From Caulobacteraceae bacterium (GTDB taxonomy: Bacteria; Pseudomonadota; Alphaproteobacteria; Caulobacterales; Caulobacteraceae), in the NCBI GenBank assembly GCA_028290905.1, contig JAQGIW010000035.1, forward strand, positions 1 through 38,775: a stretch of 38,775 nucleotides of DNA. The letters run 5' to 3'. Under the pieces are notes generated by a model. That model did not search any database and had not been told where the DNA came from. It was given only the letters and a program-made list of their open reading frames with translations. Each line of letters begins with the position of its first letter. The stretch's first letter is position 1. The translations under genes were made by a program, and so were the position numbers. Of this stretch, positions 16,168 to 37,198 are shown one piece after another.

Positions 16168-16243
16168 CTAGTGTGGCGATTCAGAAATTCGCCGCTGTTT
16201 GTGGCAGCTCCGGAGCGAATTTCTGAATCTCCAGCCACACTAG
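16168..16243. repeat. 76-bp palindromic repeat element overlapping the copB stop
   Basis: Left arm CTAGTGTGGC-GATTCAGAAATTCGC (16168-16192) is matched by the right arm at 16215-16243, with one four-base insertion in the right arm. The central 22 bases are unpaired. Long near-perfect arms ending in CTAG look like a mobile palindromic (REP/MITE-like) unit. Its right end supplies the TAG stop codon of copB. Confidence 0.7.
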
Positions 16244-17277: not shown

Positions 17278-19082
17278 GCGGCTCCTCTTCCTTCGAGGAG
17301 CCGCACGCTGAACACCTGAAACATGCCGGCATGCATGTGGTAGAGCATGTGGCAGTGGAACGCCCAGTCGCCGGGCACGGCGGTGAAGTCCCAGGCGACC
17401 GTTCCCCCCGGCAAGACGATCACCGTGTGCTTCCTCGGACGGAAGCCCGCCGGCCCATGCACGAGGTCGAAGAAGTGGCCGTGCAGGTGGATGGGGTGGG
17501 CCATCATCGTGTCGTTGATCAGCGTCACGCGCACCCGCTCGCCGTTGCGGAACGCGTAGGGCTTGGTCGTCTCGCTGAACTTCTCCCCGTCGAAGCCCCA
17601 CATGAAACGCTCCATGTTGCCGGTCAGGCGGATGTCCAGGGAACGGGACGGCGTCCGCGTATCCGGATTGGGCGCCAGTGCGATCAGGTCCCGGTAGACG
17701 AGCACCCGATGGCCGACGCTTTGGAGGCCCTGACCCGGCTCTGCCGTCCGGTTGATCGGCATGGGCGCGATCGTCTGGACCCCCGGTCCCATCTTCACCC
17801 CGGGGGCGTTCCGGGGATCGCGCATCGACATCTTCATCCCACCCATGGCGTCGAAGCCCCGCGGCTTCGGCGGCGCCGTCCCGGGGACCGCCCCGGGCAT
17901 GCCGGCCATTCCGGCCGTACCCGCCATCCCGCCGGATGAGGGCGAGCCGCCGCCCATGGTCATGGCGCCCATGTCCATGCCCATGTCCTTCATGGTGGCG
18001 AGCGGGCGTTCCCTGAGCGGCGGCACGGGCGCGGTCATGCCCGCGCGAGGGGCGAGCGTCCCGCGCGCCATGCCGGACCGGTCGACGGCCTCGGCGACCA
18101 AGGTGAAGGCCCGATCCTCGGTGGGCTGAACGATGACGTCGTAGGTCTCGGCGTTGCCGATCTGGAACTCGTCGACCTCCACCGGGCGGACGTTCTGGCC
18201 GTCGGCGGCCACGATCAGCAGCTTCAGCCCCGGGATGCGCACGTCGAACACCATCTGGGCCGCGCTGTTGATGAACCGCAGCCGCACCCGCTCGCCGGGC
18301 TTGAAGAGGCCCGTCCAGTTGTCGCGTGGGCCGTGGCCGTTGATCAGGAACTTCAGCACGGCCCCGGTGACATCGGAGATGTCGGTCGGATCCATGCGCA
18401 TCCCGGCCCATTCGACGCGCTCCTTCAGCGTCTGGTCCTTGCCGGCCAGCAGCCCGGGCAACGTCTCCTTCTGGTAGTTGAACAGGCCGGGCTGCTGCTT
18501 CAGGCGCTTGAAGACCATGTGCGGGTGCATGAAGCTGAAATCCGAGAGCACCACGACATGCTCGCGGTCGTGGGCGACTGGGTCGGCGTCCTTGGGATCG
18601 ATCACGATCGGCCCGAAATGACCCTCCGCCTCCTGCAACCCCGAATGGCTATGATACCAATAGGTCCCTGACTGAATGACCGGAAACTCGTAGACGAAGG
18701 TTTCCCCCGGCTTGATGCCCGGAAAGGTCACGCCGGGGACGCCGTCCATCTGGAAGGGCACGAGAACGCCGTGCCAGTGGATCGAGGTCTCCTCGCTGAG
18801 GTCGTTCTTCACCGACAGGCGGACGCTTTGACCCTCCTTGAGCCGCAGGAGCGGACCCGGCGATGTCCCATTGATCGTGAGGGTGTGGCTGGCGCGCCCG
18901 TCGACCGCGACGCGGGCGTGCGAGATGGTAAGGTCGATGTTGGTCCCGGTGAGGGTCGGCATGGCCGGCGCCAGCCCAGCGGTCGCGCTCTGCGCCCATC
19001 CGGGCAGCATCGAACTCAGAGCCAGACCTCCGCCGAGCAGCGAGGCGCCTTGCAGGAGCTGGCGGCGGTCGAAGTCCTTCAT
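17274..19082 (-). CDS. copA: Copper resistance multicopper oxidase CopA
   Basis: A 602-residue periplasmic multicopper oxidase exported by the Tat system (DRRQLLQGASLLGGGLALS after the ATG at 19082). Copper ligands are visible in order: SIHWHGVL and YWYHSHSG near the N-terminus, HPIHLHGHFFDL near residue 530, and HCHMLYHMHAGMFQV near 580. A Met-rich insert around residues 360-400 (MKDMGMDMGAMTMGGG) is typical of CopA/PcoA and binds extra copper. The protein oxidises Cu(I) and sequesters copper in the periplasm. It forms an operon with copB. No CopRS two-component system is in the window. Confidence 0.94.
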   Translation of the reverse strand: MKDFDRRQLLQGASLLGGGLALSSMLPGWAQSATAGLAPAMPTLTGTNIDLTISHARVAVDGRASHTLTINGTSPGPLLRLKEGQSVRLSVKNDLSEETSIHWHGVLVPFQMDGVPGVTFPGIKPGETFVYEFPVIQSGTYWYHSHSGLQEAEGHFGPIVIDPKDADPVAHDREHVVVLSDFSFMHPHMVFKRLKQQPGLFNYQKETLPGLLAGKDQTLKERVEWAGMRMDPTDISDVTGAVLKFLINGHGPRDNWTGLFKPGERVRLRFINSAAQMVFDVRIPGLKLLIVAADGQNVRPVEVDEFQIGNAETYDVIVQPTEDRAFTLVAEAVDRSGMARGTLAPRAGMTAPVPPLRERPLATMKDMGMDMGAMTMGGGSPSSGGMAGTAGMAGMPGAVPGTAPPKPRGFDAMGGMKMSMRDPRNAPGVKMGPGVQTIAPMPINRTAEPGQGLQSVGHRVLVYRDLIALAPNPDTRTPSRSLDIRLTGNMERFMWGFDGEKFSETTKPYAFRNGERVRVTLINDTMMAHPIHLHGHFFDLVHGPAGFRPRKHTVIVLPGGTVAWDFTAVPGDWAFHCHMLYHMHAGMFQVFSVRLLEGRGAA

Positions 19083-19257
19083 GCGATCTGAGGCCCCAAT
19101 CGATGAACGATGCGCACGACCAAGCCTGCACGCTCCCTGTGGATACGCCCAGGCGGCCCGGCGGGCCTCAATAGGCTTTCTGAGATCGTCTGGACGGCGC
19201 CAGGTCAAGGGGCTCGCGGCCGTCGATGTCCATCGGCCGGTACACGCTGACCTGACT

Positions 19258-20597: not shown

Positions 20598-22328
20598 ATG
20601 CAGCAAAGAATGAACGCCCGTGGCGGCGCCACGAAGATGTCGTTGTTGGCCGCCGCCGCCCTGGCGCTCCTGGCCTCGTCCGCCACGGCTCGGACAAACG
20701 TTCCGGGCTATCTCGACTACGACGGCGGCGCTCAGTTGCTCGGGCCGAACGATCAGCCGGTCACGGGGAGCCCCGCGTCCTACCTCGGTAGCGGCTTCGG
20801 CGCGCCCACCAGCGGAGGCGGCAAGTTCGTTGCAGGTAACCCCGCGGCGGCGTCGATCGGCCTCAGCTTCGAAGGCGTCTCGCAATATGACACGCGCACC
20901 CTGAACGGTGGCTTCAGCTTCATTCCGCCGGACACCATGGGCGCCGTCGGCGCCAGCCAGTTCATGGAGACCACCAACGGCGGCTACGCCGTGTACGACA
21001 AGGCGACGGGCGTCCGGACGCAGTTGATCTCCGACGGAGTCTTCTGGACCGCCGCCGGCCAGCCCCAGGGGACCTATCCGAACGGATTGCCGCTGGCCAA
21101 CGGCGACTCGCGCGTCCTTTTCGATTCGCGGTCCCAGAAGTGGATTGTCGAGTCCTTCGCCGCCAACCTCGACAGCATCCAGATCGCTGTCTCGACGACC
21201 TCGAACGCCCTGGGCCCCTGGAAGTCGACGTCCTTCACCGGATTCTCGGGCGGCATCGCCGACTACCCGACCCTGGCGATCGACAGCAAGGCCGTCTACA
21301 TCGGCACCAACAACTTCGACTCGTCTTCCAATTACGCCGGCGAGACGCTTAACGTGATCAGCCGGGCCGATCTGTTCGGCGCCGCCCCGACCACCACCAG
21401 CCTGAAGCAGTTCTTCACCCCGCTCAGCTCCATCCTGTCGGGCGCCGACCCCGGCTACGCAATCCAGGGCGTGAACCAGCTCGGCAACGATTACGGAAAG
21501 ATCCTCTCGGTCAGCATCCAGGGCCCCGACCTGATCCGCTACAACGTCAACAACCCGGGCACGGCGGCCGCAACCCTGAGCAACGTCACCTATCTCGGCA
21601 CCACGCCCTACGACACCAACGGTCCGGGCCGCCAGCCCAGCGCCTTGAACCCGCGGGTCATCGACACCCTCGACGACCGCGTCTCCAGCGCGGTCTGGGA
21701 GCGCAACGGCCTGATCTACGCGGTCCACACCGTCACCCCGACCGGCACCGACCACACCGCCATCGTCTGGACGGTTTCGAACGCCGCCACCAACGTCCTG
21801 ATCCAGGAAGGGACCGTCGGCGGCAACGGCGACGGCTTCGACTACTATCAGGGGTCGATCGCCGTGAATGCGTCGGGCCAGGTGGTGATCGGCTACGACC
21901 GGTCCGGTTCGGATCCACTGGACGGCACGATCACCTTCTTCGCCCAGACCTTCAATCCGCAGAAGAGCGGATCTCTGGTCAACACGGGCACTTTCCTGCT
22001 GCACATCAGCAACACGAACGACTACCACAACGGCTCGGTCGACGGTCAGCCCGCCACGGGCCGCCAGCGTTGGGGTGACTACTCCCAGGTGACCGTCGAT
22101 CCCAACAATATAGAAAGCTTCTGGATGATCGGCGAGTTCGCCCGCGAACCCAACGACGCGGCGAACGGCCACCCGGGCGGCACCGGCGGGACCCGCTGGG
22201 GCACCTGGATCGCCGACCTCAATCTCGCGGCGGTCCCCGAGCCGGGGACCTGGGCGATGATGCTGCTGGGCTTCGGCCTCGCCGGCGCCGCCGCTCGCCG
22301 GGCGCGCAGGACGGTCGTGGAAGCCTGA
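20598..22328 (+). CDS. PEP-CTERM propeller-like secreted protein, 576 aa
   Basis: A signal peptide (KMSLLAAAALALLASSATA) is followed by a sheet-rich body and a C-terminal sorting signal (VPEPGTWAMMLLGFGLAGAA, then ARRARR). The body shares landmarks with the secreted protein at 10160-11929: PPDTMGAVGASQFMETTN, VLFDSRSQKWIV, a DYPTLAID strand, RQRWGDYSQVTVDP, and TRWGTWIADL near the end. The function is unknown; a beta-propeller fold is likely but inferred. PEP-CTERM sorting implies cleavage by an exosortase encoded elsewhere. A classic intrinsic terminator follows at 22383. Confidence 0.8.
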   Translation: MQQRMNARGGATKMSLLAAAALALLASSATARTNVPGYLDYDGGAQLLGPNDQPVTGSPASYLGSGFGAPTSGGGKFVAGNPAAASIGLSFEGVSQYDTRTLNGGFSFIPPDTMGAVGASQFMETTNGGYAVYDKATGVRTQLISDGVFWTAAGQPQGTYPNGLPLANGDSRVLFDSRSQKWIVESFAANLDSIQIAVSTTSNALGPWKSTSFTGFSGGIADYPTLAIDSKAVYIGTNNFDSSSNYAGETLNVISRADLFGAAPTTTSLKQFFTPLSSILSGADPGYAIQGVNQLGNDYGKILSVSIQGPDLIRYNVNNPGTAAATLSNVTYLGTTPYDTNGPGRQPSALNPRVIDTLDDRVSSAVWERNGLIYAVHTVTPTGTDHTAIVWTVSNAATNVLIQEGTVGGNGDGFDYYQGSIAVNASGQVVIGYDRSGSDPLDGTITFFAQTFNPQKSGSLVNTGTFLLHISNTNDYHNGSVDGQPATGRQRWGDYSQVTVDPNNIESFWMIGEFAREPNDAANGHPGGTGGTRWGTWIADLNLAAVPEPGTWAMMLLGFGLAGAAARRARRTVVEA

Positions 22329-22410: not shown

Positions 22411-22556
22411 CGCACCGTCGCGCCTCGGCGCGGGTTTCCGGGATTCGTAAACCAGTGCACACAAGGGGCTAGACAGCGGCTTTCGAAAGCTGAGGATTGC
22501 TGTTAGTTGGGTTGAACGTCCGGCTGAAAACGGCCGGGCCTGTCGGGGGCGTTCGG

Positions 22557-23948
22557 GTGGGGACCTTCGTCGCATTTCGGGATTCCGGAGCCAGGCTCGC
22601 GGCTGCGAGCGTGCGGCTGTGGGCAAGCCTCGTCCTCCTGGCGGCCACCCCGGCCATGGCCCAGAACATCTCCGCGAGCATTTCGGCGCACGCCCACGAG
22701 GGTGTCGCCTCCTGCGCCGGGTCGGCCTGCCACGGCCGCGCGGTCGCCAGCGCGCCAGACATTCGCCACGACGAGATCAGGATCTGGCAGGACTCCACCG
22801 GCCCTGCCGGCGCCCATAGCCGCGCCTGGCGGGTCCTGGCCGAGCCGCGGGCGCAGGCGATCGCCACCCGCCTCGGGCTCGGCAGGGCGCAGGACGCGCC
22901 CGCCTGCCTGGGCTGCCACGCGGACCACCCCGCGGCCCGCGGCGCCCTGTTCCATGTGTCGGACGGGGTCGGTTGCGAGGCCTGCCACGGCGGCTCCTCC
23001 GACTGGCTCGCCAGCCACTACGCCCTGGGCGTGAAACACCGCGACAACGTCGCCAAGGGGATGATCCCACTGGAGGACGCCAAGGTCCGCGCCGCGGTCT
23101 GCCTGGATTGCCACTTCGGCGCCGCCGGGACCGGGCAGTTCGTCACCCACCAGATCATGTCGGCGGGACACCCGCGGATCGCCTTCGAACTTGATTTGTT
23201 CAGCACACTGCAGAAGCACTACGACCTTGGCGCCAACTACGCCGCCCGCAAGCCGATCCCCAGTGGCGTCAAGCTGTGGGCGGTGGGTCAGGCGATCGCG
23301 CTCGATCGCTCCCTGACCCTGTTCAGCGACCCGCGCCGGGGCCAGGAGGGCGCCTTCCCGGAATTCTACTTCTTCGACTGCCACAGCTGCCACCGGACGA
23401 TCTCCGACGACCCGCGGGCGCGGCCGACGGCGGTGATGAACCCCGGCCGGCCCATCCCCAGCGGCACGGTCCCCTACAACGACGAGAACATGATCATGCT
23501 CTCCGCCGCCGCCGCGGTGGCCGCCCCCAAGCTGGCCGCCCAGTTCGACGCCGATTGCCAGGCCTTCCACATCGCCCTGGCCACCGACCGGACGAGCGCC
23601 ATTCGCGCCGCCGGCCAGCTGGCCAGGTCCGCGCGGGCGCTGTCCAACACCTTCGCGGCCCGGGAGTTCGGCCGCGCGGAAATCCTCGGCATCCTGGGTC
23701 GTGTCATCAGCGACGCCCAGGGCGCGCGGTACACGGACTACGCCGGCAGCGCCCAGGCCGTTATGGCCATCGACACCCTTCTCAACGCCCTGGTGACCTC
23801 GGGTGAGGTCGACGCGGCCCGGGCGCGGGCGCTGCGGCCCGAGATCGACCGCGCCTATCGGGCCGTGAACGACCCCAACGGCTACCGCCCCGCGGAATTC
23901 CGCGCGGCGATCGCCAGGATCGCCCTGGCCGCCAGGACTCTCGGCTGA
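22557..23948 (+). CDS. Pentahaem cytochrome c (cytochrome c554-like)
   Basis: A periplasmic multihaem cytochrome with a signal peptide (LWASLVLLAATPAMAQ). Five haem-attachment sites are visible: CAGSACH (22713), CLGCH (22914), CEACH (22974), CLDCH (23100) and CHSCH (23379). The first has four residues between the cysteines, an unusual CX4CH. Spacing and the GVGCEACHGG stretch resemble cytochrome c554-type proteins. The C-terminal 150 residues lack haem sites and are helical. The GTG at 22557 has a GGGGG ribosome site; a TTG at 22497 would add 20 residues. It is the first gene of a four-gene operon and overlaps the next by 1 bp. Confidence 0.8.
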   Translation: MGTFVAFRDSGARLAAASVRLWASLVLLAATPAMAQNISASISAHAHEGVASCAGSACHGRAVASAPDIRHDEIRIWQDSTGPAGAHSRAWRVLAEPRAQAIATRLGLGRAQDAPACLGCHADHPAARGALFHVSDGVGCEACHGGSSDWLASHYALGVKHRDNVAKGMIPLEDAKVRAAVCLDCHFGAAGTGQFVTHQIMSAGHPRIAFELDLFSTLQKHYDLGANYAARKPIPSGVKLWAVGQAIALDRSLTLFSDPRRGQEGAFPEFYFFDCHSCHRTISDDPRARPTAVMNPGRPIPSGTVPYNDENMIMLSAAAAVAAPKLAAQFDADCQAFHIALATDRTSAIRAAGQLARSARALSNTFAAREFGRAEILGILGRVISDAQGARYTDYAGSAQAVMAIDTLLNALVTSGEVDAARARALRPEIDRAYRAVNDPNGYRPAEFRAAIARIALAARTLG

Positions 23949-25915
23949 TGGCGCGCGTCAATCCGGTCGTGGCGGTCCTCGCCGGCGCGGCGCTGGCGCT
24001 TGCCGGGTGCGGCGGCGGCGGAGGGGGCGGCGGGACACCCGCGCCCGTGACCACCCCGCCGCCCGCCGGCGTCTTCACCGCCCCGGCGGCTCTCGCCCTG
24101 TCCGCCAGCGATGTCCAGCAGGTGATTGCCCAGGCCGTCGCCGAGGCCCAGGCGCGCGGCACGCCGGCGGTGATCTCGGTGACCGACCGGGTCGGCAATG
24201 TGCTGGCGGTGTACCAGATGGCGGGCGCCCCGCAGACGGTGACCATCCGCCCGGGGGCAGGCCCGCAGCAGCTCGACCTTCAGTCCGTGCAGGCGCCGGC
24301 CAGCCTGGCGGCGATCGCCAAGGCCATCACCGGCGCCTATCTCTCGTCGGGCGGCAACGCCTTCTCCACCCGCACCGCCAGCGAGATTGTCCAAGAGACC
24401 TTCCCGCCCCAGCCGGCCACCGTGGGCCTGGGCAGCGGACCGCTGTTCGGGGTGCAGTTCAGCCAGTTGCCGTGCTCCGACCTGGAATTCCCGACCCTCG
24501 GCAAGACGATCGGGCCCCATCCGTCGCCACTGGGCCTCGCCGCCGACCCGGGGGGCTTCCCGCTCTACAAGAACGGCGTGCTGGTGGGCGGGGTCGGGGT
24601 AAAGGCCAACACCGACTACGGCTTCGACCCCGACGTCACCGTCAACAACCCCGCCCAGGTGAGCGAGGAAGCCATCGCCCTGGCAGGAACCGTAGGCTTC
24701 GATCCGCCCGCCGGCATCACCGCCGACATGATCACCGTGGGCGGCAACTCGCTCATCTACACCCAGGCCACCACCGCGACCCTGAAGAGCACGCCGGCGG
24801 CGGCCCCGGCCTTCTCCTCCCTCGGCGCGAACGTCGGCGCCCTGCTGCCGGTCAAGGGCTTCTTCGGCGGGGCCATCCTCGCCGGCCAGGCCTACGGGAC
24901 CGAGGCGTCCGGCATCCGCAAGTCATCGACCGGCGAGTTCAACAATCCCGACACCTTCATCCTCACCGACGGCTCGGGGAACGATCGCTTCGCGCCACGC
25001 GGCGGCTCCGATTCGCCATCGGGCGCCGCGCCGCTCTCCGCCGCCGAAGTGACCTCCCTGCTGCAGAACGCCTTCCAGACGATGGCCAATGCGCGGGCCC
25101 AGATCCGCAATCCGCTCAACAGCCGCGCCCAGGTCACCATCTCCGTGGTCGACACCAACGGCGTGCCTCTGGGGATCGTGCGCGCGCCGGACGCGCCGAT
25201 CTTCGGCATCGACGTCTCCCTGCAGAAGGCGCGCACGGCCAATTTCTTCTCCAACGCCAACGCCGCCTCCGACCTCACCAACAACACGGATCCGGGGCCG
25301 GGCCGGCAGGCGGACATCGCCAGCTTCGTGCCGGCGGTCCGGAACTTCCTCGGCGTGCCGACCGCGCTCACGGGACAGACGGCCTTTTCGACCCGGGCGG
25401 TCGCCGGCCTCGCCCGACCTCTCTTCCCGGACGGCCAGGTGAACGGTCCGCCGGGACCATTGTCCCGCCCCACGGCCGAGTGGAGCATCTTCGCCAGTGG
25501 CCTGCAGACGGCCCTGGTCGACACCAACCTGGCCATGGCCGTCTCGTTCGTGGGGGGGGCCAACGTCACCCTCCCGTCGCGCTGCACCTACCTGCCGGAC
25601 GTCTTCGCCGGCCAGAACCGCCTTCAGAACGGCCTGCAGATCTTCGCCGGCGGCGAGCCGATCTACCGCAACGGCGTGCTGGTGGGGGCGATCGGGGTCT
25701 CCGGCGACGGCACCAGCCAGGACGACATGATCGGCTTCCTGGGCATAGACAGCGCCGCGGCGGCGGTGGGCGGCTTCGGGAACGCGCCGGTCGCCATCCG
25801 GGCCGACCAGCTGGTGATCAACCAGGGCGGCGGGACCAACCGGGTGCTCTATATCAATTGCCCGGTCTCGCCGTTCCTGAACTCGTCCGTCCAAAACGCC
25901 TGCCAGGGCAAGTAG
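23948..25915 (+). CDS. Lipoprotein with two HbpS/GlcG haem-binding domains
   Basis: A 655-residue lipoprotein with lipobox LALAGC, so Cys 21 is lipid-anchored, followed by a Gly/Pro linker. Two copies of the HbpS/GlcG (Haem_degrading, PF03928) fold are seen. Copy one is around residues 50-250 (VQQVIAQAVAEAQARGTPAV, SVTDRVGNVLAVYQM, PLYKNGVLVGGVGV). Copy two is around 360-620 (VTISVVDTNGVPLGIVRAPD, PIYRNGVLVGAIGVSGDG). HbpS proteins bind haem. Lying between a pentahaem cytochrome and an outer-membrane barrel, it may sit on the outer membrane as a haem-binding or electron-relay part (inference). It starts on the previous stop (TGATG) and ends 3 bp before the next ATG. Confidence 0.82.
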   Translation: MARVNPVVAVLAGAALALAGCGGGGGGGGTPAPVTTPPPAGVFTAPAALALSASDVQQVIAQAVAEAQARGTPAVISVTDRVGNVLAVYQMAGAPQTVTIRPGAGPQQLDLQSVQAPASLAAIAKAITGAYLSSGGNAFSTRTASEIVQETFPPQPATVGLGSGPLFGVQFSQLPCSDLEFPTLGKTIGPHPSPLGLAADPGGFPLYKNGVLVGGVGVKANTDYGFDPDVTVNNPAQVSEEAIALAGTVGFDPPAGITADMITVGGNSLIYTQATTATLKSTPAAAPAFSSLGANVGALLPVKGFFGGAILAGQAYGTEASGIRKSSTGEFNNPDTFILTDGSGNDRFAPRGGSDSPSGAAPLSAAEVTSLLQNAFQTMANARAQIRNPLNSRAQVTISVVDTNGVPLGIVRAPDAPIFGIDVSLQKARTANFFSNANAASDLTNNTDPGPGRQADIASFVPAVRNFLGVPTALTGQTAFSTRAVAGLARPLFPDGQVNGPPGPLSRPTAEWSIFASGLQTALVDTNLAMAVSFVGGANVTLPSRCTYLPDVFAGQNRLQNGLQIFAGGEPIYRNGVLVGAIGVSGDGTSQDDMIGFLGIDSAAAAVGGFGNAPVAIRADQLVINQGGGTNRVLYINCPVSPFLNSSVQNACQGK

Positions 25916-25918
25916 GCG

Positions 25919-27766
25919 ATGAGACTGGCCGCCCTTCTGCTCGCCTCGACGGCGGTTCTGGGGCCCGCGGCCGCCTTCGCCGCCGACCCGCAGGCGGCGG
26001 CTTCCCCAGCCTCGCCTTCGATCGCCCCTTCCGTCACGCCGGTGATCGAACAGGCGCCGCCGGCGCAGGATCCGGAGGTGATCGAGGGCCGCACGCGGCC
26101 GGGCCGGCAGCCGACCTATCCGAACGAGATCATCCAGACCAATCCGGGCGCGGTCTACGCGCCGCCCCCGGACGCCTTTCCCATCGACCACATTCCGGTG
26201 CCCGACCGCTGGCGCCTCGCCGCCGACCTCGCCCTGGTCAAGCCGCACCGCTTCGATCCCTACAACCAGAACACCCTCAAGGGCGACCGGCCGCTGAAGG
26301 GGACTACCGACTGGTTCCTGGAGCTGAACGGCATCTCCGACACGGTGATCGCCCCGACGTCGATTCCATCGCCGATCAGCTCGCAATCGACGGACAGGCC
26401 CGGGGCCAACGACGCCTTCGGCCGGACCGAGAGCATCGCCATCCACCAGACCTTCATCGCCGGCCTGGCGCTGATCAAGGGGGGCTCGACCGCGTTCAAG
26501 CCGCCCGACTTCGAGTTCGTCCTGTCGGTGGCGTTCAACTTCAACTACACCACCGCGCCCGAGCGGCGGATCCTCAACGTCAATCCGACCTACGGCCTGT
26601 CGCGCAGCGACGGCTTCATCGGGCTGCAGGAGGCGTTCGTCGAGAAGCACCTGCGCAACGTCTCGGACCGCTATGACTTCGACTCGGTCCGGGTCGGCAT
26701 CCAGCCGTTCAACGCGGACTTCCGCGGCTTCCTGTTCCAGGACGACAACCTGGGCGTGCGCTTCTTCGGCGACCGCGACGGCAACCGCTGGCAATACAAC
26801 CTGGCCTTCTTCGCGCGGCTGGACAAGGAAGCCAACTCCGGCCTGAACGACCTCACCGTGCCGCTGCGCAAGGATTACATCCTCATCGGCAACCTTTACC
26901 GGCAGGACTTTCCGATCCCCGGTTTCACCTCCCAGGTCACGGTCGCCTACAACTTCAACCGCGAGGGAAGCGACGTCGTCTTCAACAGCAACGGCTTCCC
27001 GGTCATTCCGGCGATAATCGGCAATGACCGGGCCCGCGACTACGACGTGGTCTACCTGGGCTACAACGCCGACGGCCACATCGGCCGCTTCAACCTGACC
27101 GCCTCGAGCTACCTCGCCCTCGGCCAGGACCGGAACAACATCTTCACGAACAAGCCGGCCGACATCCGCGCCTGGTTCGTCGCCGCCGAGCCCAGCTACG
27201 ACATCGACTGGCTGCGGATCCGCCTCTCGGGCCTCTATGCGTCGGGCAACCACAATCCGCGCGGCCACACCGAGACCGGTTTCGACGCCATCCTGGAGAA
27301 CCCGCAGTTCGCGGGCGCCGACACCAGCTACTTCATCAGCCAGTCGCTGCCCTTCGTCGGCGGCGGCGCGGTGGGGCTCAACGGCCCCAACGGCCTCCTC
27401 CTCGACCTGCGTTCGTCGAAGGACGAGGGGCAGTCCAACTTCAACAATCCGGGCACCGCACTCGTGGGCATCGGCGCCGACGCCGACGTCCTGCCGCAGC
27501 TGCGGATCAGCGCCGACGTCAACCACATCTGGTTTGCCGACACTGCCGTCATCGAGGCCCTTCGCCAGCAGGGCTCGATCTCCAATGATCTCGGCTGGGA
27601 CTATTCGATCTCGACCATCTGGCGCCCGCGGATGACCCAGAACGTTGTCTTCCGCCTGTCTGGCGCCATCTTCCAGCCGGACAGCGGATTCAACAACCTG
27701 TTGACCTCGGTCGGCCGCGACCAGGCCTACTACTCTGTTCTCTTCAACACCGTCTTGACCTTCTAG
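25919..27766 (+). CDS. Outer-membrane beta-barrel (porin-like), 615 aa
   Basis: It has a signal peptide (MRLAALLLASTAVLGPAAAF), a Pro-rich stretch, then a barrel of alternating strands (for example FEFVLSVAFNFNYTT, RWQYNLAFFARL, SQVTVAYNFNREG). The end is YYSVLFNTVLTF, with the C-terminal Phe typical of BAM substrates. No plug domain or TonB box is seen, so this is not a TonB receptor. It does not show the CXXC start of MtrB/PioB. Its place in an operon with three haem-binding proteins makes it a candidate pore for a porin-cytochrome complex (inference). The gene lies 3 bp after the lipoprotein gene and 22 bp before the ten-haem gene. Confidence 0.8.
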   Translation: MRLAALLLASTAVLGPAAAFAADPQAAASPASPSIAPSVTPVIEQAPPAQDPEVIEGRTRPGRQPTYPNEIIQTNPGAVYAPPPDAFPIDHIPVPDRWRLAADLALVKPHRFDPYNQNTLKGDRPLKGTTDWFLELNGISDTVIAPTSIPSPISSQSTDRPGANDAFGRTESIAIHQTFIAGLALIKGGSTAFKPPDFEFVLSVAFNFNYTTAPERRILNVNPTYGLSRSDGFIGLQEAFVEKHLRNVSDRYDFDSVRVGIQPFNADFRGFLFQDDNLGVRFFGDRDGNRWQYNLAFFARLDKEANSGLNDLTVPLRKDYILIGNLYRQDFPIPGFTSQVTVAYNFNREGSDVVFNSNGFPVIPAIIGNDRARDYDVVYLGYNADGHIGRFNLTASSYLALGQDRNNIFTNKPADIRAWFVAAEPSYDIDWLRIRLSGLYASGNHNPRGHTETGFDAILENPQFAGADTSYFISQSLPFVGGGAVGLNGPNGLLLDLRSSKDEGQSNFNNPGTALVGIGADADVLPQLRISADVNHIWFADTAVIEALRQQGSISNDLGWDYSISTIWRPRMTQNVVFRLSGAIFQPDSGFNNLLTSVGRDQAYYSVLFNTVLTF

Positions 27767-27788
27767 GGGAGCGGGGGCCACGGAACGC

Positions 27789-30700
27789 GTGACGAAATCT
27801 CGGGTAGCCAAAACCTGGAGCGCCAATATCTGGGCCGTATGGGTTCTGGCGCTTATCGCCCTGGCCATCGTCACCCCGTGGGCGGTTTCCGCCAGCGACG
27901 CCGAGAAGCCGGTGGAGCGCCACTACGCTGCCGCCCCGCCCGCTCCCATGGGCGAGACCGAGGCCCAAGCGGAGACCCGGAGCGCCGGCTGCAAGAGCTG
28001 CCACACCTCTTCCGACACCTGGACCATGCACAGGTCCAAGGCTGTCGTCCTTGGCTGCACCGACTGCCACGGCGGCGACGCCTCGGTGACGGCGCCCGAA
28101 GGTCTCGCCCGGGCCGACGCCCGCTACGCCCAGCTGCGCGACCGCGCCCATGTCCTGCCACGCTATCCCCACGCCTGGGGCTATCCCCACTCGGCCAAGC
28201 CGAAGGAAAGCTACACCCTGCTCAACCGCGAAGCGCCGGAGTTCGTCCGCTTCGTGAACCCGTCAGACTATCGCGTCGCCCGGCAGTCCTGCGGCGCCTG
28301 CCACATGGCCCAGATCCAGGCCAGCGAGCGCTCGATCATGTCGAGCGGCGCCATGCTGTTCGGCGGCGCGTCCTACAATAACGGCATCCTGCCTTATAAG
28401 CACTACGTGCTCGGCGAGGCCTATACGAGCAAGGGCGAACCGGCTCGGATCCTGTCGCCGGCGACGACGCCCGGCGGCAAGCCCGGAACGGTCACGCCCG
28501 AGCAAGCCAAGCGCGGCGCGCTCCCCAGCCTCTACCCGTTGCCGACCTGGCAGGTGATCCCGCCGGCCGACGTCTTCCGGGTGTTCGAGCGCGGCGGGCG
28601 GACCATCGGCACCCAGTTCCCCGATATCGGCAATCCCAATTCCAGCGGCGAGATCCAGAAGCTGGAGGAGCCGGGCCGGCCGGACATCAAGCAGTCCAAC
28701 CGTGGCCCCGCCACCGGTATCCGGGTGGCGATCCCGGTGCTCAACATTCACAAGACCCGCCTGAACGATCCGTTCCTGTGGTTCTTCGGCACCAACGACC
28801 AGCCGGGCGACTATCGTTCCTCGGGTTGCGCCGCCTGCCACGTGGTCTATGCCAACGACCGCCAGCCACAGCACAGCCTGACCTACGCCCAGTACGGCCG
28901 CGACGGCCAGAGCGTCAGCCTCGACCCGACCATCGACAAGACCGAGACGGGCCATCCGCTGCGCCACGAGTTCACCCGCTCGATCCCGAGCTCGCAGTGC
29001 ATGAACTGCCACATGCACCAGCCGAACGTGTTCGTGAACAGCTACTACGGCTACACGATGTGGGACTATGAGTCCGACGCCCCGTTCATGTGGCCGGAAA
29101 AGCAGAAGTATCCGACTTCGGCCGAGATCCGGAAGGTGCTCGACCGCAATCCGGAAGGCGCCGCGCCGCGCGGCAAGTGGGCCGACCTCGACTTCCTGCG
29201 CAACGTCTTCGACCTGAACAGCAAGTTCAAGGACACCCAGATGGCCGACTATCACGGCCACGGCTGGAACTTCCGCGCCGCCTTCAAGCGCGACCGCGAC
29301 GGCAATCTGCTGGACGCCCAGGGTAATATCGTCGCCAACGACGATCCCGAGAAATGGCGCCGGACGGGGCAGGGCGAATTCACCCAGCCTGGGGTCAATC
29401 CGGGCAAGGCCGTCCACCTGATGGACATCCACGCCGAGAAAGGCCTGCAGTGCGCCGACTGCCACTACGCCCAGGACAGTCATGGCAGCGGGCTCATTTT
29501 CGGCGAGGTGGCCAACGCCGTGGAGATCGGGTGCCGCGACTGCCACGGCACGGTGAACGCCTATCCGACCCTCAAGACCTCGGGGCCCGCCGCCGGGCCG
29601 CACGGGACCGACCTCTCCCTGCTGCGCAACCCGGACGGCCAGCGCCGCTTCGAGTGGGTCGAGCGCGACGGGCGGCAGGTCCTCATCCAGCGCTCCATCG
29701 TCGACCCGAAGCTCGAGTGGAAGGTGTCGCTGGTCAAGGACAGCGTCGATCCGACCAGCCCCGACTTCAATCCCAAGGCGGCCCGCGCCAAGACCATGGC
29801 GCGACTGGACGCTGGCGGAAAGCCGTTCGCGTGGGGGCCGGGGGTCGATCAGAAGAACTACGCCCACAAGGACAGCGAAATGGAGTGTTTCGCCTGTCAT
29901 ACCTCGTGGATGACATCCTGCGGCGGCTGCCACCTCCCGATCGAGGCCAACTGGAAGACCGCCGGCCACAAGTACGAGGGGGAAACCACCCGCAACTACG
30001 CCACCTACAATCCGCAGGTGGCGCGCGACGACGTCTTCCAGCTCGGCCGCCACATGACCACCAAGGGCAACATGATCGCCCCCGTGCGCTCGTCCTCGGC
30101 CCTGATATTGTCGTCGACCAACATCAACCGCGACCGCATCTACATCCAGCAGCCGCCGATCTCGGCCGTCGGCTACTCCAGCCAGGCCTTCGCGCCTCAC
30201 TTCGCCCACACGGTGCGCACCACCGAGACCAAGGCCTGCGGCGACTGCCACGTGTCGGCGGCGAACGACAACAACGCCGTCATGGCTCAGCTGATGCTGC
30301 TCGGCACCAACTTCATGAACTTCGTCGGCATGCATGCCTGGGTCGGCCTCGACCACGGCATCGAGGCGGTGCGGGTGACCGAATGGAACGAACCGCAGGC
30401 GGTGTTCGGCTCGTACCTGCAGAAGTACGCCTACCCCGACTATTACAAGCTGCACGTCGAGCGGAACCACCGCGAGCTGATCGACTGGGTGCGCGGCGCG
30501 CCGTTCGACCGCAAGCTGAACGGCGAAGTCGCCGGCGCCGAGCAGATCGTCAATCCGACCCACGGCACGGCCGGTCCCGCCCGCTGCCTGCAGCTGCGCG
30601 GCGAATACATGTTCGTCGCCGAAGGGAAGGGCGGCTTCCAGGTCTATGACGTGGCCAGCGTCGCCAACAAGGACATCTCGCAGAAGATCATCTCGGCGCC

Positions 30701-31739
30701 GTTCTCCAGGTTCGGCCAGAACATGCACGTCGCCTCGCGCAACGCCACCTGCATGGCGCTCCCCACCGACCAGCCGATCGCGCCGCTGCGCAACACGCCC
30801 AAGATGCAGGCCGAGAACGAGGAACAGCCGTTCCACCCGATCTACAGCTACGCCTTCATCACCGACGCCGAGGAGGGCCTGATCCTGGTCGACGTCAACA
30901 CCCTGGCCGACCGCGATGCGCGCAACAACAACCTTCGCCGGGCCCTGACCTGGAACCCTGGCGGCGTCCTCGACGGCGCCCGCCACATCACCCTGGGCGG
31001 CCACTTCGCCTACATCGCCGCCAAGGCCGGCCTGGTGGTGGTGGACCTCGACGACCCCATGAAGCCCCGCGTAACCGCCGTCGTGCCGCTCCCCGACGCC
31101 CGCGCCTCGGCCCTGCAGTTCCGCTATTTGTGGGTCACCGACGCGCGGGGGCTCGAGGTGCTCGACGTCACCCGGCTGGGCGCGCCCCGTCTGGTGGAGG
31201 GCGCCACAGTGCCCCTCGCCGACGCCCGGCGGGTCTATGTGGCGCGCACCTACGCCTATGTCGCGGCCAAGGCCGAGGGCCTGGTGATCGTCAACGTCAA
31301 GCGGCCGGAACACCCGGAGGTCTACCAGCGCGTCACCTTCGAGGGGAAGCTCAACGACGCCGAGGACGTCGTCGTCGCCTCCACCAACGCCTCCCTGTTC
31401 GCCTATGTGGCCGACGGCAGGAACGGCATGAAGGTGCTGCAGCTGACCAGCCCCGCCAGCCAGCCGAACTTCTACGGCTTCTCGCCGCCCCCCAAGCCCG
31501 AGCTGATCGCCTGGGCCCGCACGCCCTCGCCGGCGCTCGCCATGTCCAAGGGCCTCGACCGCGACCGCGCCGTCGACGAGACCGGCCACCAGATCGCCGT
31601 CTTCGGCCGCCTCGGCTCCCGCCCCTTCACCCGCGCCGAAATGGAACGCTTCTTCCTCGACAGCAACGGCCAAGTCTACGGCGTGACGGACACCGCCCCG
31701 AAGGACAGCTGGACGCCGCTGAGGACCGCGGCAAGATAA
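27789..31739 (+). CDS. Decahaem cytochrome c fused to LVIVD repeats, 1316 aa
   Basis: The N-terminus has an uncleaved-looking membrane segment or signal (IWAVWVLALIALAIVTPWAV). Ten CXXCH sites follow, at residues about 68, 90, 168, 347, 404, 555, 582, 700, 711 and 817 (CKSCH, CTDCH, CGACH, CAACH, CMNCH, CADCH, CRDCH, CFACH, CGGCH, CGDCH). Residues about 940-1230 hold LVIVD-type propeller repeats (YMFVAEGKGGFQVYDV, AYIAAKAGLVVVDLDDP, AYVAAKAEGLVIVNVKRP, AYVADGRNGMKVLQL). The haem part should carry electrons, and the propeller likely docks a partner or the cell surface. Translation starts at GTG 27789. It is the last gene of the operon. Confidence 0.85.
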   Translation: MTKSRVAKTWSANIWAVWVLALIALAIVTPWAVSASDAEKPVERHYAAAPPAPMGETEAQAETRSAGCKSCHTSSDTWTMHRSKAVVLGCTDCHGGDASVTAPEGLARADARYAQLRDRAHVLPRYPHAWGYPHSAKPKESYTLLNREAPEFVRFVNPSDYRVARQSCGACHMAQIQASERSIMSSGAMLFGGASYNNGILPYKHYVLGEAYTSKGEPARILSPATTPGGKPGTVTPEQAKRGALPSLYPLPTWQVIPPADVFRVFERGGRTIGTQFPDIGNPNSSGEIQKLEEPGRPDIKQSNRGPATGIRVAIPVLNIHKTRLNDPFLWFFGTNDQPGDYRSSGCAACHVVYANDRQPQHSLTYAQYGRDGQSVSLDPTIDKTETGHPLRHEFTRSIPSSQCMNCHMHQPNVFVNSYYGYTMWDYESDAPFMWPEKQKYPTSAEIRKVLDRNPEGAAPRGKWADLDFLRNVFDLNSKFKDTQMADYHGHGWNFRAAFKRDRDGNLLDAQGNIVANDDPEKWRRTGQGEFTQPGVNPGKAVHLMDIHAEKGLQCADCHYAQDSHGSGLIFGEVANAVEIGCRDCHGTVNAYPTLKTSGPAAGPHGTDLSLLRNPDGQRRFEWVERDGRQVLIQRSIVDPKLEWKVSLVKDSVDPTSPDFNPKAARAKTMARLDAGGKPFAWGPGVDQKNYAHKDSEMECFACHTSWMTSCGGCHLPIEANWKTAGHKYEGETTRNYATYNPQVARDDVFQLGRHMTTKGNMIAPVRSSSALILSSTNINRDRIYIQQPPISAVGYSSQAFAPHFAHTVRTTETKACGDCHVSAANDNNAVMAQLMLLGTNFMNFVGMHAWVGLDHGIEAVRVTEWNEPQAVFGSYLQKYAYPDYYKLHVERNHRELIDWVRGAPFDRKLNGEVAGAEQIVNPTHGTAGPARCLQLRGEYMFVAEGKGGFQVYDVASVANKDISQKIISAPFSRFGQNMHVASRNATCMALPTDQPIAPLRNTPKMQAENEEQPFHPIYSYAFITDAEEGLILVDVNTLADRDARNNNLRRALTWNPGGVLDGARHITLGGHFAYIAAKAGLVVVDLDDPMKPRVTAVVPLPDARASALQFRYLWVTDARGLEVLDVTRLGAPRLVEGATVPLADARRVYVARTYAYVAAKAEGLVIVNVKRPEHPEVYQRVTFEGKLNDAEDVVVASTNASLFAYVADGRNGMKVLQLTSPASQPNFYGFSPPPKPELIAWARTPSPALAMSKGLDRDRAVDETGHQIAVFGRLGSRPFTRAEMERFFLDSNGQVYGVTDTAPKDSWTPLRTAAR

Positions 31740-33920: not shown

Positions 33921-34024
33921 GTTGGGTCTCCGCCGAGCCGCTCCGGCTTCGGCGAACTATATAGACGGGCGAGGGCCGCGGCGCTTGTATGGAAGGCGTA
34001 CGCTGCGGCCCCCGACACCCAAGC

Positions 34025-34696
34025 TTAGTGGGCCAACTGGCTGGGCTGCTCGGACTGCCCGGGCTGATTCGCCTGATTGGCTTGGCTGGCTTGCGCGGCC
34101 TGACTGGCCTCGCCCGACTGACGGGTGTCGCTGGCTTGGCCGCCCTGGTCCGACTGACCGACCTGGGCCTGTTGGCCGGCCTGGCGGGGCTGGCCGAAGA
34201 TGCGCCTCACTCGCTCCCGGCCCTGCGCCGACTTGGGCGCCGTGATGGTGAGGACGCCGTTCTCGAACTTGGCCTGGATGTGGTCGACATCCACGCCGTC
34301 CAGGGCAATCCGGCGCTCGAAACGTCCGTAGAACCGTTCGCTGACGGCGCGGCTGCGGTCTTCGATCTTCTGCTGCTTCTCACCGCGCAGCACCAGCACC
34401 CCGTCCTCCAGGAGGACCTCGACGTCCTTCTCGTCCATCCCGGGCAGTTCGGCATGGATGCGATACTCGTTCTCCGTCTCTTCGACCTCCAGCCTCGGCC
34501 AATTGGTGACGGCCGCCATGCCGCCATTGCCACCGCCCATCAACGCGGGCGTGTCGAAGCCGCGGAAGAAGTCGTCGAACAGACGGTTCATCTGGCGGTG
34601 AAGGGTAAAAAACGTCGCCTCTGGGTCCAGTTCGGCCGGCAGGTTGCGGTTCCGGCCGCCGTTGCGGCCCCAGGGAACGAGATGTTGCGTAGCCAT
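34025..34696 (-). CDS. Hsp20 small heat-shock protein with long Gln-rich tail
   Basis: A 223-residue alpha-crystallin-type chaperone. The N-terminal region (PEATFFTLHRQMNRLFDDFF, RGFD) and the crystallin domain (residues about 67-165; RLEVEETENEYRIHAELPGM, GVLVLRGEKQQ, ENGVLTITAPKS) are normal for this family. Typical members end shortly after the IxI motif. Here about 55 extra residues form a disordered Gln/Ser/Ala/Gly tail (QAGQQAQVGQSDQGGQAS, QAAQASQANQANQPGQ). The DNA of the tail is made of repeated CAGGCC/AGCCAG-like units. The ATG at 34696 follows GAGGAG. The protein should hold unfolded proteins; the tail's role is unknown. Confidence 0.92.
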   Translation of the reverse strand: MATQHLVPWGRNGGRNRNLPAELDPEATFFTLHRQMNRLFDDFFRGFDTPALMGGGNGGMAAVTNWPRLEVEETENEYRIHAELPGMDEKDVEVLLEDGVLVLRGEKQQKIEDRSRAVSERFYGRFERRIALDGVDVDHIQAKFENGVLTITAPKSAQGRERVRRIFGQPRQAGQQAQVGQSDQGGQASDTRQSGEASQAAQASQANQANQPGQSEQPSQLAH

Positions 34697-34990
34697 GACA
34701 GGTCTCCTCTTGCTAAGTCTGCATCGAGGGCAAGTCTGCTGTTGTTGATCGAGCCCGTGCGATGCTCGACCCGCCGCAGATCGTTGGGCCCCCGGTTTGA
34801 TTCAAGCCTAGTCCCGGAGTTGTGATCCGCCCTGACGCCTGTCAGTTATCGGGACGAACCGGCGAGCGCTTCCCGAACACCAACCGCTGGGTCGCCGCCA
34901 TAGGCCAGCGCCCGGCCGTCGTTCGCGGTCGCTCGGCCGAGAAGGCGGTCCCCTCCAAGTACATGCAGAAGCGCGCCGCGCCGTCGACCT
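34697..34990. other. Intergenic stretch with possible gene remnant
   Basis: 294 bases between the Hsp20 start and the end of the membrane-protein gene. The Hsp20 promoter should lie near 34700-34760. A minus-strand frame from about 35030 to 34842 reads ARFCMYLEGTAFSAERPRTT and on to VFGKRSPVRPDN; it may be the tail of a lost gene, but I do not recognise it. Nothing else is supported. Confidence 0.3.
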
Positions 34991-35836
34991 CTAGGGCGCG
35001 TACGGCGATCGTTGTGGATCCCGACCAATTCTGCGCAGCAGGATCAGACCAAAAGTGCAGGGGATGAGCCACGGCGCCGCCGGGATTCCGGCGATCCACC
35101 CCGGAATCCCATAGCCCTGTGCGAAGACCACACTCGGGTCGGGAAAGTCGACGCCTCTGAAGATCAGGCATAGCGCCAAGACCAGGCTGACGCTAAGGAA
35201 GGCCACGCAGGCCCCGGTTCCCAGCAACTGGGCGCGTCTGAGGGATAAGGCGAACAGGGCCGTCGCCAGGTAGGTGAGCAGGCCGCCGAAGAACAACAGG
35301 ATGTCGGAGAACGACATCAACCAGTTGTTCCACGGCCCCGACGCCCAGGTGTTTCCTGCCAGGGCGGCGCGATGGAATTCGAGCAACAGCGCTGCCCAAA
35401 CGAGGTAGAGCGGTGTCGCGGCCGCGATGAGAGAGAACCCCAGCCGCCCATAGAGAGTGTCGCCCGAGGCTTGCAGAACATCCTGGAGGATCATCGTCCC
35501 GCTGAAGATGGCCACCGCGTCGACGAACAGGATAACATAGCGAAAAGCGTTGTGGTCATGATCGGCGAACTCAGGCGGCCCGAAGCCCGGCATCAGCGAG
35601 AAGAGGGCGACCGGAGAGATCAGCGAGGCGGCGGCGGCCAGCGCCTTGCCGTCGGCGCCGGCCCTCGTGCGGATCAGGTGCAAACCGGCTTTCCACGCTG
35701 CGACCAGGATCACGCCCATCAGAACGGTGGCGAACGCCCAACGCACCGGGAGTGAAAATCCCAGGGGCGCCCCGAAGAGGCCCGTCGCCACCACCAGACC
35801 CACACAGAGGACGAAAAAGGACACCCGACGTCCCAT
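34991..35836 (-). CDS. Hypothetical multi-pass membrane protein, 281 aa
   Basis: An integral membrane protein with about eight hydrophobic segments (VSFFVLCVGLVVATGLFGA, WAFATVLMGVILVAAW, ASLISPVALFSLMPGF, FRYVILFVDAVAIFSG, RLGFSLIAAATPLYLVWAAL, DILLFFGGLLTYLATALFAL, CVAFLSVSLVLALCLIF, APWLIPCTFGLILL). No family was recognised. The ATG at 35836 is preferred because AGGGG lies 7 bp before it; upstream ATG (35842) and TTG (35860) are possible. A 33-bp piece similar to the metallophosphoesterase gene end lies just upstream. Confidence 0.65.
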   Translation of the reverse strand: MGRRVSFFVLCVGLVVATGLFGAPLGFSLPVRWAFATVLMGVILVAAWKAGLHLIRTRAGADGKALAAAASLISPVALFSLMPGFGPPEFADHDHNAFRYVILFVDAVAIFSGTMILQDVLQASGDTLYGRLGFSLIAAATPLYLVWAALLLEFHRAALAGNTWASGPWNNWLMSFSDILLFFGGLLTYLATALFALSLRRAQLLGTGACVAFLSVSLVLALCLIFRGVDFPDPSVVFAQGYGIPGWIAGIPAAPWLIPCTFGLILLRRIGRDPQRSPYAP

Positions 35837-35849
35837 GGACATGCCCCTA

Positions 35850-35882
35850 ACCGCGCTCAAACGGCGTGTGGTAAGTCACCGG
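35850..35882 (-). repeat. Duplicated fragment of the metallophosphoesterase gene 3' end
   Basis: About 30 of 33 positions match 36378-36409, the end of the metallophosphoesterase gene, with one indel. On the minus strand the fragment reads PVTYHTPFERG then TAG, against PVTYDTPFEAVRRT in the intact gene. It looks like a leftover from a partial duplication or recombination. Confidence 0.6.
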
Positions 35883-36364: not shown

Positions 36365-37198
36365 TCAGGTCCTGCGCACCGCCTCAAACGGCGTGTCGTA
36401 GGTCACCGGGTTCGGGAAAGTCCCCGCCACGCAGTGATGGGTCGTTAGCCGCCCCCCATCCCACGCCAGCAGCGCGAACCCCGGCGGTTCGCCGCGCAGG
36501 ATCTCGCGGCCGTCGGGGACGCGGCGATCGATGGGGGTGAGGTCGAGGGTCAGCTGCAGGGCGCTGGCGGCCGAGACGGTGACGGTATGGCCGGCGAATG
36601 GGCCGTGGAAGGCGCGATGGACGTGGCCGCTGAGGACGCCGACAACGTGGGTCCTGCCGCGGAGCGCCACGGCGAGCCGGCCCGCGCCCGCCGCCTCGAA
36701 GGTGGGGTCCATCCACTGGATCCCGCAGGGGATTGGCGGGTGGTGCACGATGACCACGGTGGGCCGCCTCGGCGCCGCGTCCAGGGTCCGCGCCAGCCAT
36801 TCAGCCCGGGCTTCGCAGAAGGCGCCTTCGGCCCGGCCCTCCTCGACCGTGTCGCACATCACAACGCGCAAGTCGCCGACATCGACGGCATACTGCACGA
36901 AGCCGTGGTCATCGACACCGGTGAGAGGGGCGGGGAAGGCGGCCAGCAGCGGCGCTCGCAGATCGTGATTGCCCATGCCGACGTAGACCGGGGAGGGCGC
37001 TCCCTTCAGGATATCGCGGAGCGCGGCGTATTCTTCCGGCGTCCCGGTCTCCGTGAGGTCGCCCGAGGCGAAGATCGCCGCCGGCCGCGGCCGCAGGGCG
37101 GCTATGGCGGCGAGCACCGTGCGCAGCCGCTCGGCGTTGCCCAGCCGCGGCGCGGCCGTGGCGATATGAAGATCGGTGATCTGTGCGATCGTCAGCAT
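36365..37198 (-). CDS. Metallophosphoesterase (CpdA-type phosphodiesterase)
   Basis: A 277-residue calcineurin-like enzyme. All metal motifs are visible: QITDLHI near the N-terminus, ASGDLTETG, MGNHDLR, IVHHPPI and LSGHVHR. The order and length match class III cyclic nucleotide phosphodiesterases (CpdA/3',5'-cAMP or glycerophosphodiester type); the substrate cannot be decided. The gene starts 34 bp after the stop of the decahaem cytochrome gene on the same strand, with AAGGGG before the ATG at 37198, so the two are probably one operon. Its last 32 bp have a near-copy at 35850-35882. Confidence 0.88.
   Translation of the reverse strand: MLTIAQITDLHIATAAPRLGNAERLRTVLAAIAALRPRPAAIFASGDLTETGTPEEYAALRDILKGAPSPVYVGMGNHDLRAPLLAAFPAPLTGVDDHGFVQYAVDVGDLRVVMCDTVEEGRAEGAFCEARAEWLARTLDAAPRRPTVVIVHHPPIPCGIQWMDPTFEAAGAGRLAVALRGRTHVVGVLSGHVHRAFHGPFAGHTVTVSAASALQLTLDLTPIDRRVPDGREILRGEPPGFALLAWDGGRLTTHHCVAGTFPNPVTYDTPFEAVRRT

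Follow-up and report, generated by a model that had tools for sequence, protein, structure and literature searches.

A candidate porin-cytochrome electron chain across the envelope of Caulobacteraceae and other alphaproteobacteria, with a PCC4-like inner half and a different outer end

Four tightly packed genes on a contig of a Caulobacteraceae bacterium (assembly GCA_028290905.1, contig JAQGIW010000035.1) encode a pentahaem cytochrome, a lipoprotein, an outer-membrane barrel and a decahaem-LVIVD protein, and raise the question of which system they serve and how far across the cell envelope it extends. The window, i.e. the whole stretch of DNA analysed, is this entire contig (C291, 38775 bases), which belongs to a genome of 5.23 Mb in 317 contigs. 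An earlier, sequence-only reading had recognized in the four genes the parts of a porin-cytochrome conduit. The conservation and linkage of the genes, their co-occurrence with a second, inner-membrane module, and the homology of that module and of the shuttle cytochrome to loci resembling the proposed PCC4 system are described below. In the best reading, a PCC4-like inner engine is combined with a different outer end, and it is reasonably probable that the genes form a trans-envelope porin-cytochrome electron chain running outward. The system is larger than first claimed (seven or eight genes) and, because its inner half matches a published proposal, less unprecedented. The relevant features of the window are as follows.

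22557-23948 (longer open reading frame start at 22497), plus strand: pentahaem cytochrome, from the list of open reading frames
23948-25915, plus strand: lipoprotein with two HbpS-like halves; 1-bp overlap with the cytochrome gene
25919-27766, plus strand: outer-membrane beta-barrel; 3-bp gap after the lipoprotein gene
27789-31739, plus strand: decahaem-LVIVD protein, 1316 amino acids; 22-bp gap after the barrel gene
36365-37198, minus strand: metallophosphoesterase (PF00149, 9e-15); transcriptionally the last gene of the convergent inner-membrane module
37233-38775, minus strand: FHA-transmembrane-decahaem cytochrome, N-terminal part absent; cut by the contig end at 38775
3539-5815: TonB-dependent receptor, about 17 kb from the haem genes

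The open reading frames bear out the adjacency and spacing of the first four genes as initially described, and also the count of at least 15 covalent haems, given by four CxxCH motifs and one CX4CH in the first gene and ten CxxCH in the last. A scan of genome contigs with the decahaem protein yielded 442 stretches, the best 80 of which were retained; the nearest named loci to the window are Caulobacteraceae metagenome-assembled genomes (MAGs). All four genes are found in 62 of the 63 retained loci with at least 6.5 kb of upstream flank, in identical order and strand in 60, so that the conservation of the set among relatives, which the sequence-only reading had singled out as the check on its proposal, is confirmed and lends support to the porin-cytochrome idea. 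The three remaining loci have the lipoprotein and the barrel in one open frame (L084), the lipoprotein inverted (L125) or only the barrel upstream (L095). In L125 the inverted lipoprotein gene lies upstream of that of the cytochrome, and the remaining operon is intact. The barrel is present in 20 of 289 genomes of the class (own genome included), with the decahaem gene beside it in all 20 and the lipoprotein in 19, the last being cut by a contig end; on this recurrence with the same neighbours an assembly artefact is rejected. Of 199 genomes of the family, 23 encode the decahaem protein (one, G040, only a fragment with a stop), as do 11 of a sample of 398 from the phylum; its gene is also carried by 13 large plasmids, 12 from Sphingobium and one from Sphingopyxis, three of which were viewed. 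According to record titles the hosts, strains or MAGs and several of them cultured, are Sphingobium, Novosphingobium, Sphingomonas, Erythrobacter, Brevundimonas and Phenylobacterium.

The decahaem-LVIVD protein carries its ten CxxCH between residues 68 and 821, followed by an LVIVD beta-propeller at approximately residues 930-1220 and a conserved C-terminal tail; Pfam matches are LVIVD (7e-18) plus cytochrome c7 and MtrC/F domains. Each of 115 full-length homologues (99 distinct sequences, the window's own among them) has ten CxxCH, and in the 62 that were aligned these motifs are invariant, as are 14 other His. Chance CxxCH motifs are rejected, the mean number in 2000 shuffles being 0.0125 for this protein and 0.0035 for the pentahaem one. 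A structural model (1200 residues) has a mean predicted local distance difference test score (pLDDT) of 54.8, with the propeller well predicted and most of the haem part below 50; its Foldseek matches are generic propellers and were not used, and a sequence search of the PDB gave a single weak chain, rubredoxin:oxygen oxidoreductase (E 0.041).

The first gene, read from the GTG at 22557, gives a protein of 463 residues with a signal-peptide-like N-terminus (462 residues in the homologue of locus L049). It matches Cytochrome_C554 of Pfam (9e-9) and, in the PDB, c554 (E 0.0096), and its four CxxCH and CX4CH are kept in 71 of 71 c554-type proteins (70 distinct), or 72 of 72 aligned with the window copy; it would be a periplasmic shuttle. 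Of 56 clustered loci, 14 have a gene for a large protein ahead of that of c554, immediately before it in 12 of the 14; one of the 14 is L045 (10-4671), whose copy has no Pfam match. In the window the gene directly upstream, on the same strand, encodes a PEP-CTERM protein (20598-22328, plus strand).

The lipoprotein satisfies the criterion for the HbpS fold (PF03928, 2e-24, three stretches), and its lipobox Cys, at residue 21, is conserved in 72 of 74 aligned sequences. The haem binding initially attributed to it is not borne out: as the window protein has one His in 655 residues, no His is conserved at an 80% threshold among the 74 sequences, and HbpS-fold proteins with functions other than haem binding also exist, it is not called haem-binding here. 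The barrel, in turn, matches no Pfam or NCBIfam family at E <= 0.1. An AlphaFold (AF2) model built from 73 sequences (mean pLDDT 82) is predicted to have 18 long strands, counted manually from the model's strand list, and its top Foldseek match is AlgE (E 6.6e-17; TM-score 0.68 by target and 0.49 by query; root-mean-square deviation 6.9), MtrB not being found among the best 50 of 834 matches. By these searches the barrel is not of the MtrB/PioB family.

Where the first description fell short is in the extent of the system. The four genes are indeed kept together, but as an operon they are incomplete without a further module of three or four genes. Neighbour clustering combined with family searches revealed genes for a phosphoesterase, the FHA-transmembrane-decahaem cytochrome (FHA-cytochrome), a membrane protein, and a protein with FAD, two cyclic nucleotide-binding (cNMP) and 4Fe-4S parts, hereafter the FAD/iron-sulfur (FAD/FeS) protein. 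In the genome under study this inner half is severed by the contig end of the window and continues on contig C184 (region L167), where the FHA part comes first and then, in order, the genes of the membrane and FAD/FeS proteins and a ccmF-like open reading frame; the cytochrome pieces on the two contigs, of 513 and about 137 residues, compare with 650 in the intact L049 homologue. The outer and inner halves are adjacent in L049, and neighbours likewise in the laboratory strain Sphingobium herbicidovorans MH, unlike in the window, where two open reading frames without Pfam match (33989-34825, plus strand; 34991-35860, minus strand), beside a malic enzyme gene, separate them.

Ten CxxCH are found in 39 of 39 homologues of the FHA-cytochrome, which has one hydrophobic segment (144-169). 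The membrane protein, of 291 residues and without assigned family, has five hydrophobic segments, and in L049 and nine relatives W93-x3-H97-x13-H111, S134-G-x-x-G138 and W265-x3-H269-x13-H283 are invariant; it is a putative carrier of two b haems. The FAD/FeS protein (816 residues) combines Pyr_redox, two cNMP_binding stretches and Fer4_11 (PF13247, 1.1e-10 in L049), and the 16 Cys of its FeS part, in four groups, are conserved in 31 of 31 sequences. Four-cluster FeS subunits of similar Cys pattern dock on membrane b cytochromes. CcmF adjoins the FAD/FeS gene in L049 and, by eye, in L167. The phosphoesterase resembles the cyclic-nucleotide phosphodiesterases SpdA and CpdA, with NCBIfam scores for the L049 homologue below the family cut-offs (133 bits against 400 and 87 against 225, respectively). 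In genomes G510 (L218-L219) and G618 (L220) the FAD/FeS and membrane proteins are fused in one frame of about 1120 residues, followed by a 9-haem FHA cytochrome.

Larger regions were taken from 17 of the 20 barrel-positive genomes of the class (L172 and L174-L189; own genome, G375 and G441 not included). The FHA-cytochrome and the membrane protein are present in 16 of these and the FAD/FeS gene also in 15, the region without either being a 6.8-kb contig; 14 show, on one strand, the order FAD/FeS, membrane protein, FHA-cytochrome, lipoprotein, barrel and decahaem, while L186 has the FAD/FeS gene after that of the decahaem and L172 a convergent inner module. Nine regions clearly show the c554 gene, and two more show it in part. 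Two genomes outside the class, G815 and G619, have the same arrangement, the contig of G619 ending after the barrel. In the order of G815, decahaem and FAD/FeS genes are each found in one of 148 genomes, G815 itself, which, as the sole positive, allows no independent test of co-occurrence there. In the family, the FAD/FeS gene (E <= 1e-150) occurs in 20 of the 199 genomes, all within the 23 that are decahaem-positive, and in the phylum sample the membrane protein (E <= 1e-109) is found in all 11 decahaem-positive genomes, both phylum searches being taken to cover the same genomes and the G815 sequence being one of the ten in the profile. The 387 decahaem-negative genomes gave ten matches to the membrane protein at E <= 1e-6 (G619 at 1e-103, three at 1e-74 to 1e-69 and six weaker); weak matches include G020, G517 and G650. 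Since the two halves lie far apart in the genome in G676, G798 and G841, the co-occurrence exceeds mere linkage.

The inner half has a counterpart in the literature. He et al. 2017 (PMC5566968) describe a putative PCC4, from metal-oxidising bacteria, as a porin, cytochromes with 4, 5 and 10 haems and a five-helix inner-membrane protein with WX3HX13H on helices 3 and 5 and SGXXG on helix 4; PCC3 is described there with a five-helix protein of these motifs too, and in PCC4 subgroup II a pfam13247 Fe-S gene lies upstream of that of the inner-membrane protein. The present system likewise has a porin, as the modelled 18-strand barrel, in a cluster with several multihaem cytochromes, a membrane protein with five hydrophobic segments, both WX3HX13H motifs and SGXXG (in L049 and its nine relatives, the copy of the window's genome being on C184) and, as in subgroup II, a PF13247 Fe-S gene upstream of that of the membrane protein, judging from the match in L049 and from the gene order of L167 and the larger regions. 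It differs from PCC4 in its haem numbers, i.e. 5 (four CxxCH and one CX4CH), 10 and 10.

Searching with the membrane protein also led to three loci, L221-L223, which encode in order a c554-type protein (3 or 4 CxxCH), a cNMP/FeS protein, the membrane protein and a decahaem cytochrome. L222 (2353-13214) is the most complete, with a 5-haem protein, a 459-residue presumed porin without Pfam family, an FNR/2Fe-2S protein, a 4-haem c554, and then the cNMP/FeS, membrane and decahaem proteins, and it fits PCC4 subgroup II by the published description. On L221, a 9.1-kb contig, a 481-residue presumed porin and an FNR-like open reading frame are found, and a 5-haem gene is not; in L223 an FNR-like frame was recognised, and the porin and 5-haem gene were not. 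These loci were chosen by features and not by the authors' accessions. Whereas their flavin domain belongs to a separate FNR/2Fe-2S protein, here it is fused and pyridine-nucleotide-disulfide-reductase-like. In profile-profile comparisons with L221-L223 the probabilities are 99.3% for the c554 protein, 99.4% for the membrane protein, 99.8% for FHA-cytochrome against decahaem and 100% for cNMP/FeS, the sole other pair above 50% being FHA-cytochrome against the c554 protein (52%). The barrel, decahaem-LVIVD protein and lipoprotein have no match above 50% in these loci, including the presumed porins and the 5-haem protein, with porin and 5-haem profiles consisting of two sequences and one, respectively. 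By this comparison, homology to PCC4-like loci covers the inner half and the c554 shuttle but does not extend to the outer half.

The outer half may not be wholly new either. Among the PCCs of karst MAGs, a 2026 study (PMC13264449) distinguishes a first group of 11, in which a decahaem gene of 4-5 kb adjoins that of a porin with about 20 strands; seven of the 11 also have a gene for ferredoxin-NADP reductase in the vicinity. Likened by features alone, the present decahaem gene of 3.95 kb, the adjoining 18-strand barrel and the pyridine-nucleotide reductase agree with it, and the two systems, set side by side by description only, are probably the same; the group is not dissected there, and the lipoprotein, five-helix protein, FHA cytochrome and LVIVD domain are not named in its description. 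The statement that no described system has this exact set was therefore too strong, considering the PCC4 motifs of the inner half and this porin and large-decahaem type. The Geobacter extHIJKLMNOPQS cluster (PMC5877670, PMC6148476) shares a non-cytochrome lipoprotein with barrel and periplasmic cytochromes, an inner-membrane b cytochrome and a weak match to ExtM; its lipoprotein is a rhodanese as against HbpS here, and FHA and cNMP parts are not named for Ext in these descriptions. In NCBIfam the decahaem protein scores 66.2 bits with ExtM (cut-off 800) and 28 bits with ExtN (cut-off 200), both far below the values for family membership. With MtrCAB, MtoAB and PioAB only the general plan is shared, and homology to MtrAB is rejected on the family searches and fold matches of the barrel given above. 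The decahaem protein has about four times the length of MtrA. Searches of the open-licence literature for LVIVD with multiheme cytochrome, for FHA, multiheme, cNMP and thioredoxin reductase, or for extracellular electron transfer in sphingomonads found nothing, absence there proving little; by title, the LVIVD repeat appears with a cytochrome in Methanosarcina only, and among the matches listed for decaheme, Caulobacter and Sphingomonadales, which include the karst study, no title concerns these genes.

We infer the following sequence of carriers, with their cofactors and subcellular places. Cytoplasmic NAD(P)H would reduce the FAD domain of the FAD/FeS protein, whose four [4Fe-4S] clusters would pass electrons to two b haems of the five-helix inner-membrane protein; from there they would move to the ten c haems of the FHA-anchored periplasmic cytochrome and to the five-haem c554-type shuttle. 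The latter would deliver them to the decahaem-LVIVD protein, which the 18-strand barrel and the HbpS-fold lipoprotein presumably keep at the outer membrane, and which would finally pass them to an extracellular or outer-membrane acceptor, e.g. Fe(III), Mn(IV), humics or another oxidant. The cNMP domains, together with the phosphodiesterase homologue encoded nearby and the FHA domain, suggest that a cyclic nucleotide, and perhaps also phosphorylation, switches electron entry.

Several observations weigh against such an outward chain. Among 60 loci with at least 9.5 kb downstream, the whole second module and the phosphoesterase are found in 37, a part in 11, some of which may run beyond the stretch, and none within about 10 kb in 12; the stretch of L173 (G841) holds the outer half only. 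Three of the 23 decahaem-positive genomes of the family, G034, G040 and G046, have no FAD/FeS match, G040 having a fragment only and G046 the FHA-cytochrome and membrane protein on a contig that ends inside the module. Conversely, the inner modules of G510 and G618 have no recognisable barrel or decahaem gene nearby, and the inner module may have other partners as well. The FHA domain barely reaches the Pfam cut-off (20.7 of 20.7 bits), NAD(P)H is proposed as donor from a domain match, and the surface location and electron carriage of these proteins are presumed; the decahaem protein is without lipobox and may be periplasmic only. The closest fold of the barrel is a polysaccharide exporter of 18 strands, and the MtrB type, with 26 strands, is larger. 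The small barrel is nevertheless compatible with a conduit, because 18 transmembrane domains are also ascribed to Geobacter ExtB (PMC6148476). A match to a substrate-specific porin, proposed by the sequence-only reading as evidence to the contrary, is thus found for the fold (AlgE) but not for the gene context, which is one of cytochromes.

Alternatively, the same chain could run inward, extracellular Fe(II), Mn(II) or reduced humics being oxidised and electrons reaching the quinone pool or NAD(P)+ via the inner-membrane protein; this is the direction proposed for PCC4, with its homologous inner half, by He et al. 2017, who argue that the motifs of the membrane protein, as also found here, resemble those of quinone-active b cytochromes (PMC5566968). 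A reductase domain fused to a ferredoxin, however, suits NAD(P)H oxidation at least equally. Moreover, the named hosts are mostly Sphingomonadales and Caulobacteraceae, which to our knowledge are not known as lithotrophs, and we regard an inward chain as unlikely. If, instead, the barrel is a solute pore, as its AlgE-like fold would suit, the decahaem-LVIVD protein could be a surface or periplasmic reductase of an oxyanion, peroxide or metal chelate entering through it, e.g. in metalloid detoxification or ferric-iron acquisition. Its distant similarity to two products of the selenite/tellurite operon, ExtM (66 bits) and ExtN (28 bits), goes in this direction, and when ExtI, which is the ext cluster's porin, is lost, the reduction of selenite and tellurite is impaired (PMC6148476, PMC5877670); yet the Ext matches are far under the family cut-offs and, with 14 extra invariant His available for ten haems, an open catalytic haem is not evident, so that such a reductase seems quite improbable.

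That there is no conduit at all, and that the outer proteins handle haem or iron and are served by the cytochromes, we consider very improbable. The Pfam name of the lipoprotein domain, haem-degrading HbpS-like, and the TonB-dependent receptor in the window, distant as it is, speak for it; the lipoprotein is, however, without conserved His, the companion at the genome level is a redox chain, and no haem or iron uptake genes are found among the identified neighbour clusters, most of the 45 clusters not being identified. Elsewhere in the window lie a second PEP-CTERM gene (15398-16078, plus strand) and a pair of CopB-family and multicopper-oxidase genes (16240-19208, minus strand), probably for copper resistance.

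Returning to the outward chain, a broader proposal, which we put forward as tentative and rather less than even in likelihood, is that ordinary aerobic alphaproteobacteria export electrons from NAD(P)H through a standard cNMP/FHA-gated inner engine with exchangeable outer ends, i.e. the porin and five-haem protein of PCC4 or the AlgE-like barrel, decahaem-propeller and HbpS-fold lipoprotein; we know of no structural or functional precedent for a conduit of the latter composition. The clusters L221-L223 lend themselves to tests of PCC4 itself. Chains that carry electrons across the envelope are known chiefly from specialised metal-respiring or metal-oxidising bacteria; the complete candidate chain described here, which would lead from NAD(P)H chemistry to an outer-membrane barrel, is conserved in common soil and water bacteria. 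If true, the control of electron entry by cyclic nucleotides would be an unusually direct regulation, and a single inner engine with interchangeable outer ends would provide a testable rule for the evolution of conduits.

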